From the NCBI RefSeq assembly GCF_016859285.1, contig NC_053402.1, positions 22,329,056 through 22,393,055 on the forward strand: 64,000 nt of DNA, in the 5' to 3' direction. Source of the stretch: Xiphias gladius (Eukaryota > Chordata > Actinopteri > Istiophoriformes > Xiphiidae). This document shows, piece after piece, positions 9,712 through 53,139 of the stretch. The notes under the pieces are model-generated. The model did no database searches and was not told the DNA's origin. It was given only the letters and a program-made list of their open reading frames with translations. The translations under genes were made by a program, and so were the position numbers. How positions within the stretch are numbered: the stretch's first letter is position 1; every line of letters starts with the position of its first letter.

Positions 9712-11492
9712 TCACACAACTAGAGTTCGCTTTTTGTTGGCGAGGAACACGTGCCAGCTGTGCCAGTGAAGCCTGGTGTTCTCGGTGCAGTGGCCGCTCT
9801 CAGTGCAGGTGTGGCCGCTGGGACAGCAGTGCGTCATGTCGCTGCAGCACACCGCCTGCGGAGAGAGCAGAGGAAGGAAGGTACGTAACGCTGTCGGCCA
9901 GTGGTGGAATAAACAATCAGGGGCTTTAGTTAAGTAGAATTTGCAATATCATGGTATAAACAGACTCAAATCACAAGTAAAGAATTGCCTTTAATTTTCT
10001 CAAGCTGTAGAACAACCACCAAATATTATTTAAAATATCAAAAGCACTCATTATGGCTCCTTTATGAGTGTTATATTATTAAATATGTTATAATACTGGA
10101 TTGTTATTATGATGCATTAACACGCAGGCAGCATTTCACTGTTGCAGTTGGTCAAGGTGGAGCTAAGTTTGACTGCACAGTGTTGGTTAGTCTCATCTCT
10201 GGCAAAGGATCATATCTCTATAAGCTGATGTTTTACATGTCAAATCATTTTCCACAAAGTAAGTAGTAACTTCAAGCCGTCTGACTTAATGTGGTGAGGT
10301 AAAAAGTAGAGTACATCCCTCAGAAATGTAGCGGAGTCAAAGCATAAAGTAGCAGAATTTGTAAAATCAAAAGTACAGGTACCTCAAAATTGTACTTGAG
10401 CACAATATTTGTACCTCTACCGCTGTCATCAGCAGCCAGAGACATGGATATCACAGCCATTTTCACTGCAATTTTCAATACACATTAAAGCTGGGCAATA
10501 CTGACAAAAACCAAATATCACTATATTTGCGATTCAGTACCTAAACATTAAAGTCCCTACAGTATGTACAGGAGTTGCAGCATAATCAGTTCTTCTGCTA
10601 TTCAGTCTCATTGTTAGAATTATTGTATCACTAATACTGATGCATTGACATGTAAGCAGCCCACTAGTAATGCAGCTGGTTGAGGCGTTGCTGGGTAAAA
10701 TAAACAACAAAAATACATTATTTTCTATAAGATGATTCGTATGTTAAGACTCAATCCGCAAAATATAATTAGGTTAATTAAGTTAGTTATTGTTTTTACG
10801 CAACAATGATTGAAAAAAAGCCGTTCTCAATGTCCTAGAGCACAAGGTGACATCATTAAATGCCTTGTTTTGTCTGATCAAAAGTCCGAAACCCAAAGAA
10901 ATTTAATTTGATATTATGCAAGACCAAAAAAAAAAAAAAAAAAGCAGCAAATTCTCACATTTGAGAAGCTAGAACCATCAAATGTTTGGCATTTCTGCTT
11001 GAAAAATGGCTCAAACGGCTTCATTAAGATTTTTCCCTGACTTTCCTCAGCTGTTATTAGCTCTGCTTGATGGTTAAAATGTGGCAGGAGGGAAGTTATT
11101 ACTGTAAATCATACATTCGGAGATGGACAGCAGCCCCATGTAGTGGCGGACGTCCTGCAGCAGGTCTCGTGATCCCTGCAGCTGGCCTCCTCGTCACAGT
11201 GGACGTCTCTGTGCTTTAAGGGACTGGTCTGGGGTTGATGGACAGGCAGGTACAGCGGTGTCAGAGGGACGGTGTCCAGCTGCAGCATGACGACCTTCTG
11301 ACAGGACCTGGAGCCGATGTTACAGGTGTAGCCCTGCGGGCAGCAGTGGTCCTTGTCTGGGCAGCACACGGCCTGCGGACACAACATGCAGAAGGTGAGT
11401 GTAAATGACAGCCCTTACTTTACATAGGCAAACTATGGTAGCGCACTTTTTATTTTCACGTCAATGTAGTCTCTTCTTCCACTTATCTCTCA

Positions 11493-11525
<33 letters not shown>

Positions 11526-14500
11526 GTACTCACATTTTGCAGCGGGCAGCAGCCCCACTCGCCCGTGAAGAGCTGGCAGCAGGTGGTTTGCTCGGGGCAC
11601 TGATTCAGACCGTCGCACCGCACGGAGCCGGGATCGGCCTGGACGCTGGTGGTGGCTGGGAGCTTGGTGTACCACGGGATCACCACTTCTCCTTTGACGC
11701 AGGAGGTCATGCGCTCGTTGCACTTGTAGTGGGTGGGGCAGCAGTGGTTCCCGTCGGCGCAGCACACCGCCTAGAGAGAAGTGAGAGAGGGGGTGCTACT
11801 TTCAAATCACTAATCCAGTTTCCCAGTTCTCCTTTCCTTTCCAGTGACAAGAATAAACTTAACACGAAAAAACAAGAGGTGTGCAATAATATTCTACAAG
11901 TAAAACTGTAACATCACTGTACATCTAGCCAGGAAATACTTGCTGAACAGGAAGAGTCTAAATTTATTAGCATCCTGTCTGGTCCAGTGGTTTTTTAAAA
12001 ATTTTTTTTTTTTTGACTATGCTATCAGTTCTTGTTGAGGGCCCCCTTACAAAAAAAAAAACAAAAAAAAAACCTGAAACAGATACTCCAAATAGCACAA
12101 AGCAAACTGGTGTGAGAGTCATCCCGAGGCTTGAGCCAAGGAGTCATGTGGGCCGGAGTCAGTTCAGAGCTCGTCAGATTCACCTAAGCGTGGTTTTCAG
12201 GATAATGCATGGGGGTGCTGCAAGATACATTTTAAATGATCTTAGTCACAGTAGCGGAGCCAGCGCAGAAAATTTCAATCTTTATACAATCACCCACCCT
12301 AGACTATTGTGGGTGATTCTGACAAACCAATGGCATTCAGATATTTCTAGTACCGACTGGCAACAATGAACACTTGTGGTGTGGCTTGGGGAGATTTTTC
12401 AGGTTTTCTCTACCTCATGTCATCATGAAAATAATCACGTTGGGTTTTTTCTTTAGCTCAGACAAAATATGAAACCGGAAGATGACATCTTCATCTCTGG
12501 CAACTTTGTCCTTAATAGTGTCACATCTCATAGACAACATAATAAATCAGTTCATTCATAAGTAAATTGATAGATGAATCAGTTATTAATGTTGCAGTCC
12601 TCTGCACTGTATACTGCTCAATCACCATTACATTTCAGAATAAGAGTCACTGGAGATCAGTGATGCTATGAAAATGCGGGGCTGACCTCCGGTAGCGGGC
12701 AACATCCCCACTTTTGAGACGAGGTCATGAAGCAGCAGGTGGTGTCCTGAGGGCAGCTGGTGTGGGCGTCACACGGAATCCTGCCCTCCACTTCTTTATT
12801 CTCCTCCTCTTCCTTCTCATCCGCCTCCTGTGCTTTAGTCACCTCGTTCTCCTCAGGCTCCTTCTCCTCCTCCTCTGTTTGCATGGCGCTTGTTGCCTGA
12901 CTTTGGCTTGTAGTGGCCAACGTAGCGGGAGCCGGCGTGGCGAATGGCGGCATCTTCTGTTTCATGGGTGTTGAGCCTGAGTCCCCCACACAGGTGAGGG
13001 TGGCCAGGTGACAGGTGGTGCCAGCAGGACAGCAGTGCTCATAGTCGTCACAACAGACCGCCTTTCATACAAAATGACAACAATACTTTCAGCCCCAAAC
13101 ATTGCGTGACAGTTGAATGTATGCATTTGGATCAGGAGAGGGAACTGTCAAAGTGAAGCCAAGGTGAGGTGCAGAAAAAAAGTCAGTGCTAAAGAGTGGG
13201 TAAATGCGCCGATAAATATGCTGTACAAACAGACGGAAAAACATTCATGCATCTCTAACACCTTTCACATCAAAGCTTACACATTTAAATAAGGACCTTT
13301 TAAGAAAAACGACAGACAAAATTGTACCTCTGGTAGAGGACAGCAGGCCCAGCCTCCCTCCTGGTTTTTACAGCATGTGGTGCCGTCAGGACAACTGGTG
13401 GTAGAGTCACATGCAACATCCCCCACCTGTACTCCCTGTCTGGGGATTGCAGGTATCTTCTCGACCCAAGGCATGGAGCTCGTGTCGTCATCGCAGGTTT
13501 GGGCGGCCAGGTTGCACTTCTGACCTTTCGGGCAGCAGTGTATGAAATCGTCACAACAAACAGCCTGGGAATGATACGATCAAACAGACGGAAAAACATT
13601 CATGCATCTCTAAAACCTTTCACATCAAAGTTTTATACATTTAGATGAGGACTTTTTAAGAGAAACGACAGACAAAATTGTACCTCTGGTAGAGGACAGC
13701 AGGCCCAGCCTCCCTCCTGGGTTTTACAGCATGTGTTGCCGTCAGGACAACTGGTGGTAGAGTCACATGCAACATCCCCCACCTGTACTCCCTGTCTGGG
13801 GATTGCAGGTATCTTCTCAACCCAAGGCATGGAGCTCGTGTCGTCGTCACAAGTCTGGGCGGCCAGGTTGCACTTCTGACCTTTCGGGCAGCAGTGTATT
13901 AAATCGTCACAACAAACAGCCTGGGAATGATACGATCAAACAGATGGAAAAACATTCATGCATCTCTAAAACCTTTCACATCAAAGTTTTATGCATTTAG
14001 ATGAGGACTCTTTAAGAAAAACGACAGACAAAACTGTACCTCTGGTAGAGGACAGCAGGCCCAGCCTCCCTCCTGGTTTTTACAGCATGTGGTGCCGTCA
14101 GGACAACTGGTGGTAGAGTCACATGCAACATCCCCCACCTGTACTCCCTGTCTGGGGATTGCAGGTACCTTCTCAACCCAAGGCATGGAGCTCGTGTCGT
14201 CGTCACAAGTCTGGGCGGCCAGGTTGCACTTCTTACCTTTGGGCAGCAGTGTATTAAATCGTCACAACAAACAGCCTGGGAATGATACGATCAAACAGAT
14301 GGAAAAACATTCACGCATCTCTAAAACCTTTCACATCAAAGTTTTATACATTTAGATGAGGACTTTTTAAGAGAAACGACAGACAAAATTGTACCTCTGG
14401 TAGAGGACAGCAGGCCCAGCCTCCCTCCTGGTTTTTACAGCATGTGGTACCGTCAGGACAACTGGTAGTAGTGTCACATGCAACATCCCCCACCTGTACT

Positions 14501-17500
14501 CCCGGTCTGGGGATTGCAGGTATCTTCTCAACCCAAGGCATGGAGCTCGTGTCGTCATCGCAGGTTTGGGCCGCCAGGTTGCACTTCTGACCTTTCGGGC
14601 AGCAGTGTATGAAATCGTCACAACAAACAGCCTGGGAATGATACGATCAAACAGATGGAAAAACATTCATGCATCTCTAAAACCTTTCACATCAAAGTTT
14701 TATGCATTTAGATGAGGACTCTTTAAGAAAAACGACAGACAAAACTGTACCTCTGGTAGAGGACAGCAGGCCCAGCCTCCCTCCTGGTTTTTACAGCATG
14801 TGGTGCCGTCAGGACAACTGGTGGTAGAGTCACATGCAACATCCCCCACCTGTACTCCCGGTCTGGGGATTGCAGGTATCTTCTCAACCCAAGGCATGGA
14901 GCTCGTGTCGTCGTCACAAGTCTGGGCGGCCAGGTTGCACTTCTTACCTTTTGGGCAGCAGTGTATTAAATCTTCACAACAAACAGCCTGGGAATGATAC
15001 GATCAAACAGATGGAAAAACATTCATGCATCTCTAAAACCTTTCACATCAAAGTTTTATACATTTAGATGAGGACTCTTTAAGAAAAACGACAGACAAAA
15101 TTGTACCTCTGGTAGAGGACAGCAGGCCCAGCCTCCCTCCTGGTTTTTACAGCATGTGGTACCGTCAGGACAACTGGTAGTAGTGTCACATGCAACATCC
15201 CCCACCTGTACTCCCGGTCTGGGGATTGCAGGTATCTTCTCGACCCAAGGCATGGAGCTCGTGTCGTCATCGCAGGTTTGGGCCGCCAGGTTGCACTTCT
15301 GACCTTTCGGGCAGCAGTGTATGAAATCGTCACAACAAACAGCCTGGGAATGATACGATCAAACAGACGGAAAAACATTCATGCATCTCTAAAACCTTTC
15401 ACATCAAAGTTTTATACATTTAGATGAGGACTTTTTAAGAGAAACGACAGACAAAATTGTACCTCTGGTAGAGGACAGCAGGCCCAGCCTCCCTCCTGGT
15501 TTTTACAGCATGTGGTGCCATCAGGACAACTGGTGGTAGAGTCACATGCAACATCCCCCACCTGTACTCCCTGTCTGGGGATTGCAGGTATCTTCTCGAC
15601 CCAAGGCATGGAGCTCGTGTCGTCTTCGCAGGTTTGGGCTGCCAGGTTGCACTTCTGACCTTTCGGGCAGCAGTGTATTAAGTCTTCACAACAAACAGCC
15701 TGGGAATGATACGATCAAACAGATGGAAAAACATTCACGTATCTCTAAAACCTTTCACATCAAAGCTTTATACATTTAAATAAGGGCTTCTTAAGAAAAA
15801 CGACAGACAAAACTGTACCTCTGGTAGAGGACAGCAGGCCCAGCGTCCTTCTTGGTTTTTACAGCATGTGGTGCCATCAGGACAACTGGTGACAGAGTCA
15901 CATGCAACATCCCCCACCTGTACTCCCTGTCTGGGGATTGCAGGTATCTTCTCGACCCAAGGCATGGAGCTCGTGTCGTCATCGCAGGTTTGGGCGGCCA
16001 GGTTGCACTTCTGACCTTTCGGGCAGCAGTGTATGAAATCGTCACAACAAACAGCCTGGGAATGATACGATCAAACAGACGGAAAAACATTCACGCATCT
16101 CTAAAACCTTTCACATCAAAGTTTTATACATTTAGATGAGGACTTTTTAAGAGAAACGACAGACAAAATTGTACCTCTGGTAGAGGACAGCAGGCCCAAC
16201 CTCCCTCCTGGGTTTTACAGCATGTGGTGCCATCAGAACAGGCCACTGTATCATTGCAGGGGACATTATTGCCTGGAAGAAAAATGCCAATAGTTATGGT
16301 AGGAAAAAAATCAGAACCTGTTCCTTACCTCTCTGAAATCTGCCCTCATGCTGAGACAAAGCAAACGAACAACAAAAACGCCACTCAGTGGTGTGAAGGT
16401 AGCTAGAGATGAAGTAATGTGCCAGCAAAGCCAAGTAAAAAGCAAATATAGATGTAAACAATGCAGTATTAAATGGATAAGGCTGGAGATTTTCTATATT
16501 TTTCTTATTGTCAACAAATCTCATGAAAAAACCAAAAAAAGAAGGAATGTATCCTTCTAACAAGTATTGTCTGTGTATCCAAAACCTGATTTAGCTTTTT
16601 CATCCGTGCCATCGGGTTTCAAATTTTTTCCAAAATCTGTTATAAAACAAAATGGTGAGCCACACTGTTGCACTAGGTGATATGTTCCTTCATTACAAAA
16701 AAATATTTGGCTTCGCAAACACCATACGAAGAAAACGCACTGAATTGCGTCTGTTAGACCTCAAGGATACGCGCAATGTGTTTCGGCGGGAAACGTTGAA
16801 TGTTAACTTTTGTTTGTTTACAAGAAAACTTTTTGAAGTTCTTTGTTCAGCTGACAGACACCTGCCAAACTGATGATTTTGAAAAACCTTTTTAAACCTT
16901 TTGCATCAGATTAGCAAAATACTGTATGATACATCACTGAGACTAATACCGATCCTAAACAGTCATTGATAATGGTACAATACTACTTCCATACATACTG
17001 GATGCAGGAAGAACGCTGCTGTACTTAATTTTAACCTTGATAGATCTTCCCCACTGCATAAATGTTGTCTTGTCATAGCAGGAAATGTTTCACCCATATA
17101 ACATTAACATTTAGCTGTGCCATTATTAATGTTATTAAACCAAAATATCTTCCATGAGAAGAGGCTATTGGTGAATTTGTACCTTACACCGTCAGCAACT
17201 TTTGTGGTGAATGAAAACGTACGCACCTGGTGTCATTATATGCATTTTTTGATACATCTGTGAACCTCTTGTTCTTTATTGTTTTAAATGTGATAACTTG
17301 ATGTGTAATACAAAACCTCACCTCCAGCACCCTTATTGACAGTTGACACAGACACTTCTTCCTCTAAAGGGGGAACTGTATTCACTGTGTTGCCTTCTGG
17401 TGCTTTTTCTGATGCACCATCTTTAACTGCCTCTGCAGTCACTTGTTCCGCCTCTGAAAGTGGAAACATGCACATATCAGGCTGCATGAACACACACACA

Positions 17501-20500
17501 GATTTAGATGATGAGTAATTAGAATGAGAAAGTAAATTGTGTTTTTTTTTTTTTTAGCAACACAAAAACAAATCTGACCTTTCTTACTCTCCCACTCCGC
17601 TCTTATCCTGGCGGGGAGTTTGGCCCACATTGGCATCTCTTTCTTGGTGAATAAGGAAATACATTTGGAGCGTTCGACATCACATGTACTCATCTCAGGG
17701 CAGCAGTGCAGCTTGTCCTCGCAGCACACGGCCTGTTAGACGATAAAGACACACATGGACCATGCATCACCTTAGAAAACCCACGCGATAAAGTGACCAT
17801 AAAGTCGAGATAGCTGGACATCAAGGCGGGACATGCAAAATCCATCATTTGACTTTTTACTCATTCATAATCTCACTTTTGCTACGGAGGAACATTAGCA
17901 TTTTAAAGCTGACATAGTGTGTGTGCCCATAAAGAAAAGATGAAGCATTTTGTACCTTTGGTATGGGGCAGCATCCCCACTTTCCCTCTGGGGTTTCACA
18001 GCAGGTGGTTTGATCTGGACACTCTGACACTCCATCGCTGCACATAATTGTAGTCACAAGCTCTGCAACAACATAGCAGGAACATGAAAAATTTTTGTGC
18101 AATAACTTTAAGGGACCTGGAGATAAAAGTAAATCCCTTAGAAACGCAAGGCAACAAAAAAATTATGTGGTGCAGAAAAGCTGCTTTGACACGTTCAGTT
18201 TTGACTCTGGGAACAGTAAGCAGACCTGTCCCAGGTGACCTGAGAGGTGTGGACAGTTCATAAGAGTTTTAAAATAAGCGTGTTGACAAACAGGAAGCCA
18301 GGCCTGCGATTTGAGAACTGAACTGAACTAGTTCTCTCTACTGTATCTTCCTCAAATTGTTACCTGAACTGTCTCTAAGTACATTGAGAGCAATGAAAAA
18401 CCAGACTCAAATTCAAACTGAGCTGCAGCTGTCTGATTTACATTTTATGGAGAACAGTTAAGACCCCATTGCATTAGTTGAGCTTTGGGAAAGATGGGCA
18501 ACTTTTTCGAAATCATGCTCAGACATAAGTCCGTTCACTATTGTGTTAATACACGGGTTCCTGAGCGCCTTCATCACCGAGATGTGTGCAGACACCTCAG
18601 ACAGTTCAAATCCTGTACTGACAGTTTGTCAGGGGTGAAGCTCTGCCTGTTTACAGTTTTTGCTTTAATGTAGCATATCTGGCATATATCCAGTGTCTGC
18701 TACACATTGAGGAAAGAGCAGGATTTTCATGCATGCTAATGTTATGAATATGATAACTATACTATAATAATGAATATAAATCTATTCTTAAGATGACAGT
18801 AGGCTGATTTTGTAATTGTCTTGATGTGGATTTTAAAATTTAAGTCTGAGTCTATAACTACACCAAGATTTCTGCCTTGGTTTTTGAACTTTAACATTAG
18901 CAATTGAGGCATTGTGCACTGACTTTTAATTGTTCTTCTTTTAATCCAAAAAACACTTATCTCTGTTTTTTCTTCGTTTAACAGGAGAACATTTTGCCAC
19001 ATCCACTCATTGCCTGTATGGGACCGCAGTAACCTGGTAATACTGTTACGGTAAAATATTTTGTTGCTCGGATCATGTAGGTGTTGAACGGAAGAGGCCC
19101 GAGAATGGAGCCTTGGGGTACGCCACATCATTTTTGAACACTCAGATGTGTACACCAAGCCTTCCCTATCCTGCAGACAGGATTCACACCAAGTCCCAGA
19201 CAGTTTTCCAGTCTGTCAAGTGTTATGTTGTGGGAGTAAGTAGAAGAGCTTCACCTTTTTTGATGCAGGACCGGCTGGTTGCACTGCATTGGTGGCCCTC
19301 AGGACAGCAGTGTTTGCCATCAGAGCAGGGGACTCCCTGTCAGAGGTCAGGAAATCAAGAACAATTCACAAATAATTTTTACTCTATGATTCAAAAATGA
19401 ATCATTTTATAGAGAAATAAGGTTTCAATATTAACTCAAACTCCAAAATTGGTGTGATAATTACAAATTTAAAGTCTGCCTGTACCTGTTTCTGAAATGC
19501 ATGGTACATTGTTGCTGTAAATCAATCCAGCAGATAACTTTACCAGAAAAACCAGAAAACCACTGAATGTTCTTTCAGTTCAAACAGAGCTATAGCTTTC
19601 ATATTAAATTTCACACGATAGCAGAAATCCCTTCCGACATATCTATTGTCTTCTAAGAAGTGAAACATCTTAGCTTGCTATTCAAAGAGCGAAAGATCCT
19701 CTTTTTGACAGGAAGTAAATGGGTTTTTGAAAAAAAAATCTTAGTTTTGCATAGTATATGAAACAAAGTCCACTCAGGAGTTCACTCATAACACCACCAG
19801 TTTTACTGTATGAGTGGTTTACCAGTGGACTCCATCATGGACTTTGTTTCATGGTTTTGTTCTTTATTTCTTGATTTCATATCTGTTCTTTTACTTTTAA
19901 AAACATCAGTACAATTTTAGTGGTTATTACCTCTTTTTTCCCTAATACTAGTGCTGAAGCATCACCATTATTTAAAAATGACATATTGATAATTGAAAAT
20001 GCTACAGGTTGATTACCTGAGCTAGGGGACAGCAGCCAAATCTCGTCAGGGCCCTCAGACAGGAAAACTCGGGCGGGCATCGCGATTGATCCGGACAGAT
20101 GTTGTCATCTTCCTCCCCCATGTATGCCTTTATCATCCTGAAGGACTGCAGGGACAGGGTGGAGAAAGGGGGACAATCTTACTGCAGGAACTCTCCTTAA
20201 ATACGTCAAACTGTGACTCGGCGTTTCATCTGTGTTCATTATGAAAGCAACGTGAGTCTGTTATTCTTACTTTGGAGAGCCTTGGTTGATTGGCAGAAGC
20301 TCTTTTCACCCAGGGTATGGACACAGTGGCGTTCACACAGCTGGCTTTGTCTGTATCGCAGATTGTGCCCGGAGGACAGCAATGCATGTGATCCCCACAG
20401 CACTCAGCCTACGGGGACAGCAGTAGTAGAAACAGTTTGACTACCAAAGTATTAAAACTGCTATCACATCAGGCTAAATGAGGCCTGAGCTTTTATCTGG

Positions 20501-22150
20501 TTTGTAAAGTTGTGAAAAACCACCGAGGATGAATAGTCCCACTGTATGGCCTCTCTTTTAATTTTACGAGAGTACGAGAGAATGGTTATCTCAAATGTCC
20601 TATGATAAAGTACTACGTCTTTGCTGGGTCTGGTTAAGAGGTAAACTTAGTAGTGAGAAAAAGGGGGTTTAAAGTTTTCAGCTTGAGTGGTTAAGCTCTA
20701 ACAGATGGATAAGATGTCATTTCTTCATTTTATGCCTTTGGGGACTAACTATTTCACTGACATAGACCTTTGAGAAAACCTGAGGGAATATGAGGGGAAT
20801 CAAGAATGTGTTCTCTCAGCTTTCCATCTACCATTTTTTAAATAATTACCTTGAAATTGATATAATAAATAAATTTACACATTAACACATTTAAATACGT
20901 TATTTACAAATTGCTTAATCACACCAAATTGTGAATTCCACTAGAATCAAAAGCTGAAATGGCAGCTAGCTTCTGCTATTCTAGGCTAGGCTAATTTTAA
21001 ACAGCACTAGTCTAGCTATTTTTTTGTGTCTCCATGGCTGATTTAGCTGCTGCCTTATTTATACGGGATAACAAACTTAATTATCAAGATGTTAATTCAC
21101 CAAAAGTGATATTACAGGAAATAGCTAGGGGAAAAAATAAGTCAGTCTAGCTCAAGGTTAGCTGTAGCTATTTCCTGCTAGCTTTAACTGGAGTTAGCTC
21201 TGGTGGTTTAGCCGTGTAGCTGACTGTTTGCTTTTTAGCTGTGTTTTGCTGTAAATCCCATTTAATATGCTGTTTTCTTTGAAATTATAGGTTTCTATTG
21301 CTTTAAAAAAATGTTCTATGGCAAAATAGAGGTCAAGATGTCAGATTGCTGGTTTTAACTAAATGCTGAATAGACACAGTTTCTACATTTTGGCTTTGTA
21401 GGGAAGTGCCAGTGTGCAGAAATAACCTAAATTAAAATATAAAAAAAGCTGATTTTACCGCTTAAACCATGTCAGGTACACCAGCAGGTCTATCATTACA
21501 AATGCATCTGTGTAATTTCAACTATTTCAAATCTGCTGCAAAGTTTTCCAAGATACAAAATAGATATTAATCTGAGGACAACTGTGTATAAAATGAAAAC
21601 ATGGCATCTTTACCTGGGAAACATTTCTGCCAAATGAATAAATGTTAATGTAAATATTTCACACAATGTAAGAATCAGTAATGTGCCGGAACAAGCAGAT
21701 GCAGAGTATCCTGTGTGCAGGTATGTGATGTTTTCATAAAGTATATGTTTATTAGGTCACTTTAAACCTATTATGGGGTAAGTTTAGGGAGAAAATTTAA
21801 AATTGGCCAATATCTAGTGCAATAATGATAATAAGAAGGGAACTTTACACCATGCACACTCCATAATGCTTCACTCACAACATGCTTACGTAGAATTACT
21901 GAATCCAAAAAGTAGTATTCTTACAAAAGAGGAATTGTGTTTAGTATCGTCCAACTCAGTGCAGGTGTTTCTGCAGTGCAGAACGTGCAGGTGGTGCAAC
22001 CGTGTCTACCTGATCAAACGGGCAGCATTCATAGCCGTTCGCCGGGTCGTTGCAGCAGGTTTGACCTTCTTCACACCTCCCCCCATCTGGACACTCTTCA
22101 GCACCAACCAGGGCCAGGAGAACCCAACACAACACAACCCACTTCTGCAT
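9712..22150 (-). CDS. grn: Progranulin with about 15 granulin domains
   Basis: Progranulin is a secreted, lysosome-targeted growth factor precursor cut into cysteine-rich granulins. Coding exons, 5' to 3': 22010-22150 (signal peptide MQKWVVLCWVLLALVGA), 20271-20408, 20017-20145, 19255-19336, 17956-18062, 17579-17732, 17322-17453 (cysteine-free linker), 16175-16272, eight near-identical exons at 15819-16055, 15463-15699, 15107-15343, 14751-14987, 14395-14631, 14040-14275, 13684-13920 and 13328-13564, then 12687-13061 (with an acidic E/K-rich linker), 11534-11770, 11115-11372 and 9712-9855. Each internal exon carries the C-half of one granulin (AVCCxDxxHCCPxGxxC) and the N-half of the next (CPxxTTCCxxxxxWGCCPLPE), so domains are split by introns. 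All phases agree except exon 14040-14275, which is one base short. With that base restored the product would be about 1296 aa; human progranulin has 593. The slc25a39 neighbour supports orthology with mammalian GRN. Fish have several grn paralogues, so grna or grnb is not decided. Confidence 0.93.
9895..10440 (+). repeat. interspersed repeat, family D copy 1
   Basis: A long copy in the last grn intron. It begins CCAGTGGTGGAATAAAC, contains GATGCATTAACACGCAGGCAG and GTCAAGGTGGAGCTAAG, and ends with CAAAAGTACAGGTACCTCAAAATTG. This is a common fish repeat rich in AAGTA/TACTT words. Pieces of the same family recur at about 10540-10690, 61010-61510 and 61690-62130. Confidence 0.6.
10840..11040 (+). 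repeat. interspersed repeat, family A copy 3
   Basis: Same family as at 5850. Marks are AAAGTCCGAAACCCAAAG, GAAGCTAGAACC, ATGTTTGGCATTTCTGCTTG and AAAAATGGCTCAAACGG. An A-rich run of 18 bases interrupts it. Confidence 0.6.
11501..11525 (+). repeat. (CA)n microsatellite at a grn splice donor
   Basis: On the grn strand this is (GT)n starting about ten bases after the donor of exon 11534-11770 (AAT|GTGAGTACT then GT repeats). It is intronic. Confidence 0.9.
13328..16055 (-). repeat. grn: Tandem array of eight granulin exon-intron units
   Basis: Eight units recur every 356 bp (one step is 355). Each has a 237-bp, 79-codon exon and a 119-bp intron. Exons 14395-14631 and 15107-15343 differ at one base by eye, and 14040-14275 and 14751-14987 at about four. 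Introns are nearly as conserved as exons, so the copies are recent or homogenised by unequal crossing-over or gene conversion. Units with 'DDFIHCC' alternate with 'LIHCC' units over much of the array, giving a 712-bp higher-order period. Each exon joins a granulin C-half to the next N-half through a linker (DDDTSSMPWVEKIPAIPR). The block therefore yields seven domains wholly inside it and completes one more at each end. Confidence 0.93.
14040..14275 (-). other. grn: Frameshifted array exon with embedded in-frame splice donor
   Basis: This array exon is 236 bp, while its seven sisters are 237. The lost base is in a short homopolymer: sisters read GCCCGAAAGGTCAGAAG or GCCCAAAAGGTAAGAAG, and this copy reads GCCCAAAGGTAAGAAG. 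Read through, the frame breaks and a TAA is met at 13899-13901, in the seventh codon of the next exon. The site also forms AAAG|GTAAGA, a near-perfect 5' splice site. Splicing there would leave a 39-bp exon (14237-14275, 13 codons ending in CCA AAG) in phase 0, joining in frame to the next unit. A sequencing or assembly error in the homopolymer is the main alternative. Confidence 0.8.
18778..19010 (-). mobile_element. non-LTR retrotransposon fragment (reverse transcriptase C-terminus)
   Basis: The minus strand translates to WMWQNVLLLNEEKTEISVF, then NQGRNLGVVIDSDLNFKIHI and TITKSAYCHLKN. These are the hallmark blocks just after the polymerase core of fish L2/CR1-type LINEs (consensus 'LNxxKTE', 'NLGVxxDxxLxFxxHI'). 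It is a short relic without endonuclease or upstream polymerase motifs. It sits in a grn intron in the same orientation as grn. Confidence 0.8.
19758..19852. repeat. Small inverted repeat in a grn intron
   Basis: A perfect 15-bp inverted pair, ATGAAACAAAGTCCA (19758-19772) and its complement (19838-19852), encloses further pairs GTCCAC/GTGGAC and CACTCATA/TATGAGTG. It folds as one long imperfect hairpin and resembles a tiny MITE. No transposase is linked. Confidence 0.6.

Positions 22151-34655: not shown

Positions 34656-38171
<3,516 letters not shown>

Positions 38172-50986: not shown

Positions 50987-53139
<2,153 letters not shown>

Follow-up and report, generated by a model that had tools for sequence, protein, structure and literature searches.

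The window, by which the whole stretch of 64 kb analysed here is meant (contig C3, 22329056-22393055, of a genome of 690.8 Mb in 1298 contigs), carries a long-form progranulin gene besides a ribosomal protein L3 gene and matches to two further protein families (Table 1). The exons with PMP22/claudin matches perhaps belong to a calcium-channel gamma subunit. Granulin half-exons on the minus strand, as found by a half-module profile search, match a gene of 20 exons which begins with an ATG at 22150, ends with a stop codon at 9714-9712 and has its internal exon borders marked by AG and GT; once exon 14 is omitted, the model is one open frame of 1217 aa. Its modules match solved granulins, and a Pfam search placed PF00396 above cut-off on the two exons submitted. 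Genome-wide, PF00396 gave 27 matches in three clusters.

Table 1. Features of the window (window coordinates; a slash in a motif marks the exon-intron border).
Feature	Position	Strand	Basis
Long-form progranulin gene, 20-exon model	9712..22150	-	AG/GT edges, open frame, half-module profile matches, Pfam PF00396 on two exons
Eight near-identical CN exons in tandem, 356-bp period	13328..16055	-	Tandem Repeats Finder and exon table
Two-unit blocks 15343-14632 and 14631-13921	13921..15343	-	Duplication of higher order within the array; blocks 7 substitutions and one missing base apart
Copy 6, 236 nt, one A short, broken frame	14040..14275	-	Exon table, sequence
AAA run; closest sister, copy 4 (14987-14751), has AAAA	14238..14240	-	Alignment
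Donor-like AAG/GTAAGA, copy 6, phase 0; last exon base would be 14237	14231..14239	-	Donor scan
Identical nine bases, intact copy 4, phase 1; last exon base would be 14948	14942..14950	-	Donor scan
Second internal donor-like CAG/GTGGGG, copy 6, phase 2 (phase 0 in seven intact copies)	14133..14141	-	Donor scan
Stop TAA inside copy 7 upon read-through of copy 6	13899..13901	-	Translation
Ribosomal protein L3 gene (RPL3)	35180-38150	+	Read without frameshift
Exons matching PMP22/claudin family	50987-53139	-	Pfam, one above and one below cut-off
Open frame with RUN domain PF02759	2125-3000	-	Pfam, 105.8 bits

The modules of the 20-exon model combine N, C and CN exons that join in phase 0 within a module, as a passage of PMC1310530 states for progranulins. 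The exon order, sn-c-n-c*-n-c-y-n followed by 8 cn, 3 further cn and c, includes the 10-cysteine module 2 (c*) and the spacer exon y which the table of PMC4527844 gives for the GrnA type, and the gene fits an ordinary long-form fish progranulin of the GrnA subgroup, a predicted name which rests on exon order. Zebrafish GrnA, in the order printed in the same source (sn-c-n-c*-n-c-y-n ... cn-cn-cn-c), likewise has near-identical modules in mid-gene and CN exons; it has, however, separate n and c exons there, whereas here eight near-identical CN units follow each other, one of them a base short. A second long-form granulin gene (C9:3076000-3095500) with the order n-c-n-c-n-c-n-c-n, five cn and c is close to the GrnB row of that table and has no near-identical array; open frames contain all 20 half-modules detected, and each of the five CN exons falls in a single frame, which is a weak observation as the search was confined to stop-free stretches. 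Three granulin half-module matches at C24:11162881-11164611 make up a short cluster, perhaps a short-form gene.

For the array, Tandem Repeats Finder reports a 356-bp period, 8.5 copies and 95% matches. The array exons all begin and end in phase 0; seven of the eight measure 237 nt (79 codons) and copy 6 (14275-14040) measures 236, while the distance from one acceptor to the next is 356 in six of the seven cases and 355 in the remaining one, so that the exon table bears out the shortened exon and spacing described in the initial annotation. As the two-unit blocks differ by so little (Table 1), copies 3-4 and copies 5-6 are recent duplicates. Copy 6 shares its bases at columns 15 and 128 with other units and not with copy 4, a pattern which gene conversion may have left. 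The units carry distinguishing bases, such as those at columns 15, 36, 43, 109 and 128, and the array is therefore well resolved in the assembly; a genome search with a 475-base query, in which the best candidates were scored, found the eight units on C3 but no further copy of the array. The array is recently expanded and, since PMC4527844 calls near-identical tandem modules recurrent among progranulins, is a further example of module arrays already described.

The base absent from copy 6 is one A of the string CCCAAAAGG, as present in 14987-14751. Over 356 columns, copy 6 differs from intact copy 4 by 3 substitutions besides the missing base, therefore a true deletion would be very young. Just one other base, at column 109, is private to copy 6, its N-half reaches 62.0 bits with the half-module profile versus 59.3-62.6 in the sisters, and its exon edge GAG/GTACAG also occurs in copies 1 and 4, the edges being no different from those of the sisters; no further decay was found in this exon or in the rest of the gene model. 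Read as it stands, copy 6 leads after 807 codons to the stop in copy 7, which translation confirms as a TAA where it had been proposed, and in the 20-exon model five exon junctions lie downstream of the stop-bearing exon. By the usual rule, a stop followed by five junctions predicts nonsense-mediated decay.

The donor-like AAG/GTAAGA stands after 39 nt in copy 6 and after 40 nt in 14987-14751, which agrees with the phases that had been assigned to the short copy and its unbroken sister. It encodes Lys-Gly-Lys as normal coding sequence, and the other six copies read AAG/GTCAGA at this position. The initial annotation had regarded the donor as productive only in the deleted copy; this holds for the phase, but the deletion neither makes nor strengthens the site, nor is the site specific to it, as the same nine bases are found in intact copy 4. 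With a donor-frequency matrix AAG/GTAAGA scores 6.85, against -0.76 and -1.18 for the annotated GAG/GTACAG and GAG/GTACAA, and the computed U1 pairing energies are -9.5 versus -6.9 and -5.7 kcal/mol. On both strands of the 64 kb, 11 sites (8 on the plus and 3 on the minus strand) score at least as high by this matrix; AAG/GTAAGA is strong and uncommon, a good donor on paper.

All 8 exons, on the other hand, hold CAG/GTGGGG with a score of 4.74 by the same matrix and a stronger U1 pairing of -10.8 kcal/mol, because of which donor-like strings outscoring the annotated donor are the rule in the array; and because CAG/GTGGGG is in phase 0 in 7/7 intact exons, an internal in-frame donor-like site is not peculiar to the broken copy. 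Single-base deletions made in silico left a phase-0 site of GTAAGA strength behind an open frame in 19 of 237 cases for copy 4 and in 0 of 237 for each of the six other intact exons; when a site as strong as CAG/GTGGGG sufficed, the figures were 116/237 (copy 4) and 97/237 (six other intact exons). The figure at GTAAGA strength somewhat favours a rescue by splicing, the figure at CAG/GTGGGG strength does not.

The CAG/GTGGGG site follows nt 138 of the intact exons (137 in copy 6), where it codes for Gln/Val-Gly, and outscores the weak annotated donors. Its use would drop N-halves in frame, and alternative splicing of the whole array is possible as a prediction.

Splice events were enumerated with the options of full exon use, skipping (8 exons), retention of the following intron (7) and use of the GTAAGA site (2 exons). 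The frame is reopened by 2 of 17 single events, namely the 14237 donor and the skipping of copy 6, and each of the 14 open two-event paths includes one of these. CAG/GTGGGG was rejected as a frame repair in copy 6, where it is in phase 2 and would not mend the frame; it lay outside the options enumerated. From the internal donor at 14237 an in-frame junction to the next exon is possible, thus the proposed 13-codon exon does join the next unit in an open frame, and the expected length of about 1230 aa is matched by 1230 aa in the 20-exon model, with a stub that brings four extra cysteines (171 vs 167). Skipping of copy 6, a further frame-restoring route absent from the initial annotation, links copies 5 and 7 without breaking the frame and yields 1217 aa of normal modules only, with one module fewer. 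Use of the GTAAGA site in copy 4 leads to a stop. As copies 4 and 6 do not differ over the 69 nt that follow the A-run, similar use is expected in copy 4, and with equal and independent use p in both copies in-frame transcripts would amount to p(1-p), at most 25%.

While the weight given to a consensus error, a null allele, skipping and the 14237 donor is a matter of judgement, we lean towards a base which the animal has but the consensus lacks, as a one-base length error within a near-identical tandem repeat. One A of the four-A run would have been lost from the consensus of copy 6, and AAG/GTAAGA, coding sequence in common with copy 4, would have entered phase 0 by chance once the upstream base was lost. 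An error is in line with the loss of one base in a short run of an otherwise undecayed copy, and near-identical repeats are hard to polish: around the site, the identity to other units is complete over 73 nt on the upstream side and 69 nt on the downstream side. The authors of PMC4527844 met and corrected sequence errors in several progranulin predictions derived from genomes; PMC6868369, in the part that deals with one-base errors, treats them solely for homopolymers in older platforms, and no support is taken from it. Against an error, 150 of 150 fn3 matches scored, from 1204 candidates, are free of internal stops, and the RPL3 gene in the window has no frameshift, 400/400 query residues being aligned with a single two-residue gap at a junction where split codons were left out. 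Three giant exons elsewhere in the genome, two of which we take to be titin-like by size and domain, are open over 5711, 5795 and 2102 codons (40.8 kb), and the rule of three puts the frame-break rate in such giant-exon sequence at less than about 7 per 100 kb. Also the longer runs A5, G5 and T5 of the array are altered in length only by substitution, and a homopolymer bias would therefore have been expected there first; the good resolution of the array by the distinct bases of its units likewise speaks against an error.

This accuracy of the assembly outside the array equally speaks for a real deletion in the form of a private or segregating null or truncating allele, a possible but less probable reading, in which transcripts retain the 236-nt exon, terminate at 13901-13899 and mostly undergo nonsense-mediated decay, while the second long-form gene covers for the loss. 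The five junctions behind the stop exon and the C9 gene with its 20 half-modules in open frames are consistent with it, and progranulin loss would be tolerable, since zebrafish without Grna and Grnb show no obvious phenotype in the results given by PMC4365039; the lack of other decay in the exon and the gene model argues against it, and the assembly offers no second allele for comparison. That the deletion is real and the array tolerant, the broken copy being bypassed via skipping or the 14237 donor so that near-full-length progranulin is still made, appears unlikely; phase-0 edges and internal donor-like sites stronger than the weak annotated donor may then permit flexible splicing. Skipping of the 236-nt exon, which we hold to be quite improbable, is among the two of 17 single events that reopen the frame and keeps it because all array exons have phase-0 edges. 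It has a parallel in a rat progranulin cDNA variant (via PMC1310530), which fits the removal of one exon, with the N-half of one module fused to the C-half of the module after it, though the passage on it describes no frame-breaking mutation, and a precedent in frameshifted multiple-of-three exons (PMC5453576), where, in the cases presented, skipping likewise restores the frame after a frame-breaking indel and removes one repeat. Those transcripts, however, were seen after genome editing and the present case is predicted from sequence, and the edges of copy 6 are like those of its sisters. Splicing of a truly deleted copy 6 at AAG/GTAAGA 14237, with the 13-codon exon joined to 13920 and a product of 1230 aa, is very improbable. 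Its frame is open, the score of the site exceeds that of the annotated donor and so strong a site is seldom brought into phase by a random deletion, and cryptic sites in or beside an exon, which can alter the effect of a mutation, were used in 3/7 zebrafish mutant lines of PMC5716581. There, however, the events were seen in cDNA, with the frame kept in one and lost in two of the three cryptic-site lines. It is weakened by the stop that the same site would cause in copy 4, the ceiling on in-frame transcripts, the stronger pairing of CAG/GTGGGG with U1 and the extra cysteines of the stub. A cryptic donor within a repeat of fish GrnA was not reported in the literature consulted.

We infer that the event is an error rather than an allele and that the donor was present before the deletion; the alignment of GTAAGA with the frame is most likely chance. 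The initial annotation had left the choice between a splicing rescue and a lucky coincidence around an assembly error, and it is the coincidence that is favoured, while the rescue is not supported because the donor nonamer of the sister is unchanged, 7/7 intact exons hold another phase-0 site and skipping restores the frame as well. The case is probably an ordinary one, a sequence error or a broken allele, and not an evolved repair.

If the base is missing from the consensus only, the matter is one of annotation, and a GrnA predicted from this genome would be wrongly truncated or wrongly spliced. If the deletion is real, the allele is a naturally occurring one that is broken or bypassed; the human counterpart of the gene, progranulin, is dose-sensitive, and this fish has a second long-form copy. 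It would then test whether a tandem array of symmetric exons absorbs a frameshift, and, if the tolerant reading of the array were true, such an array would buffer its own frameshifts.
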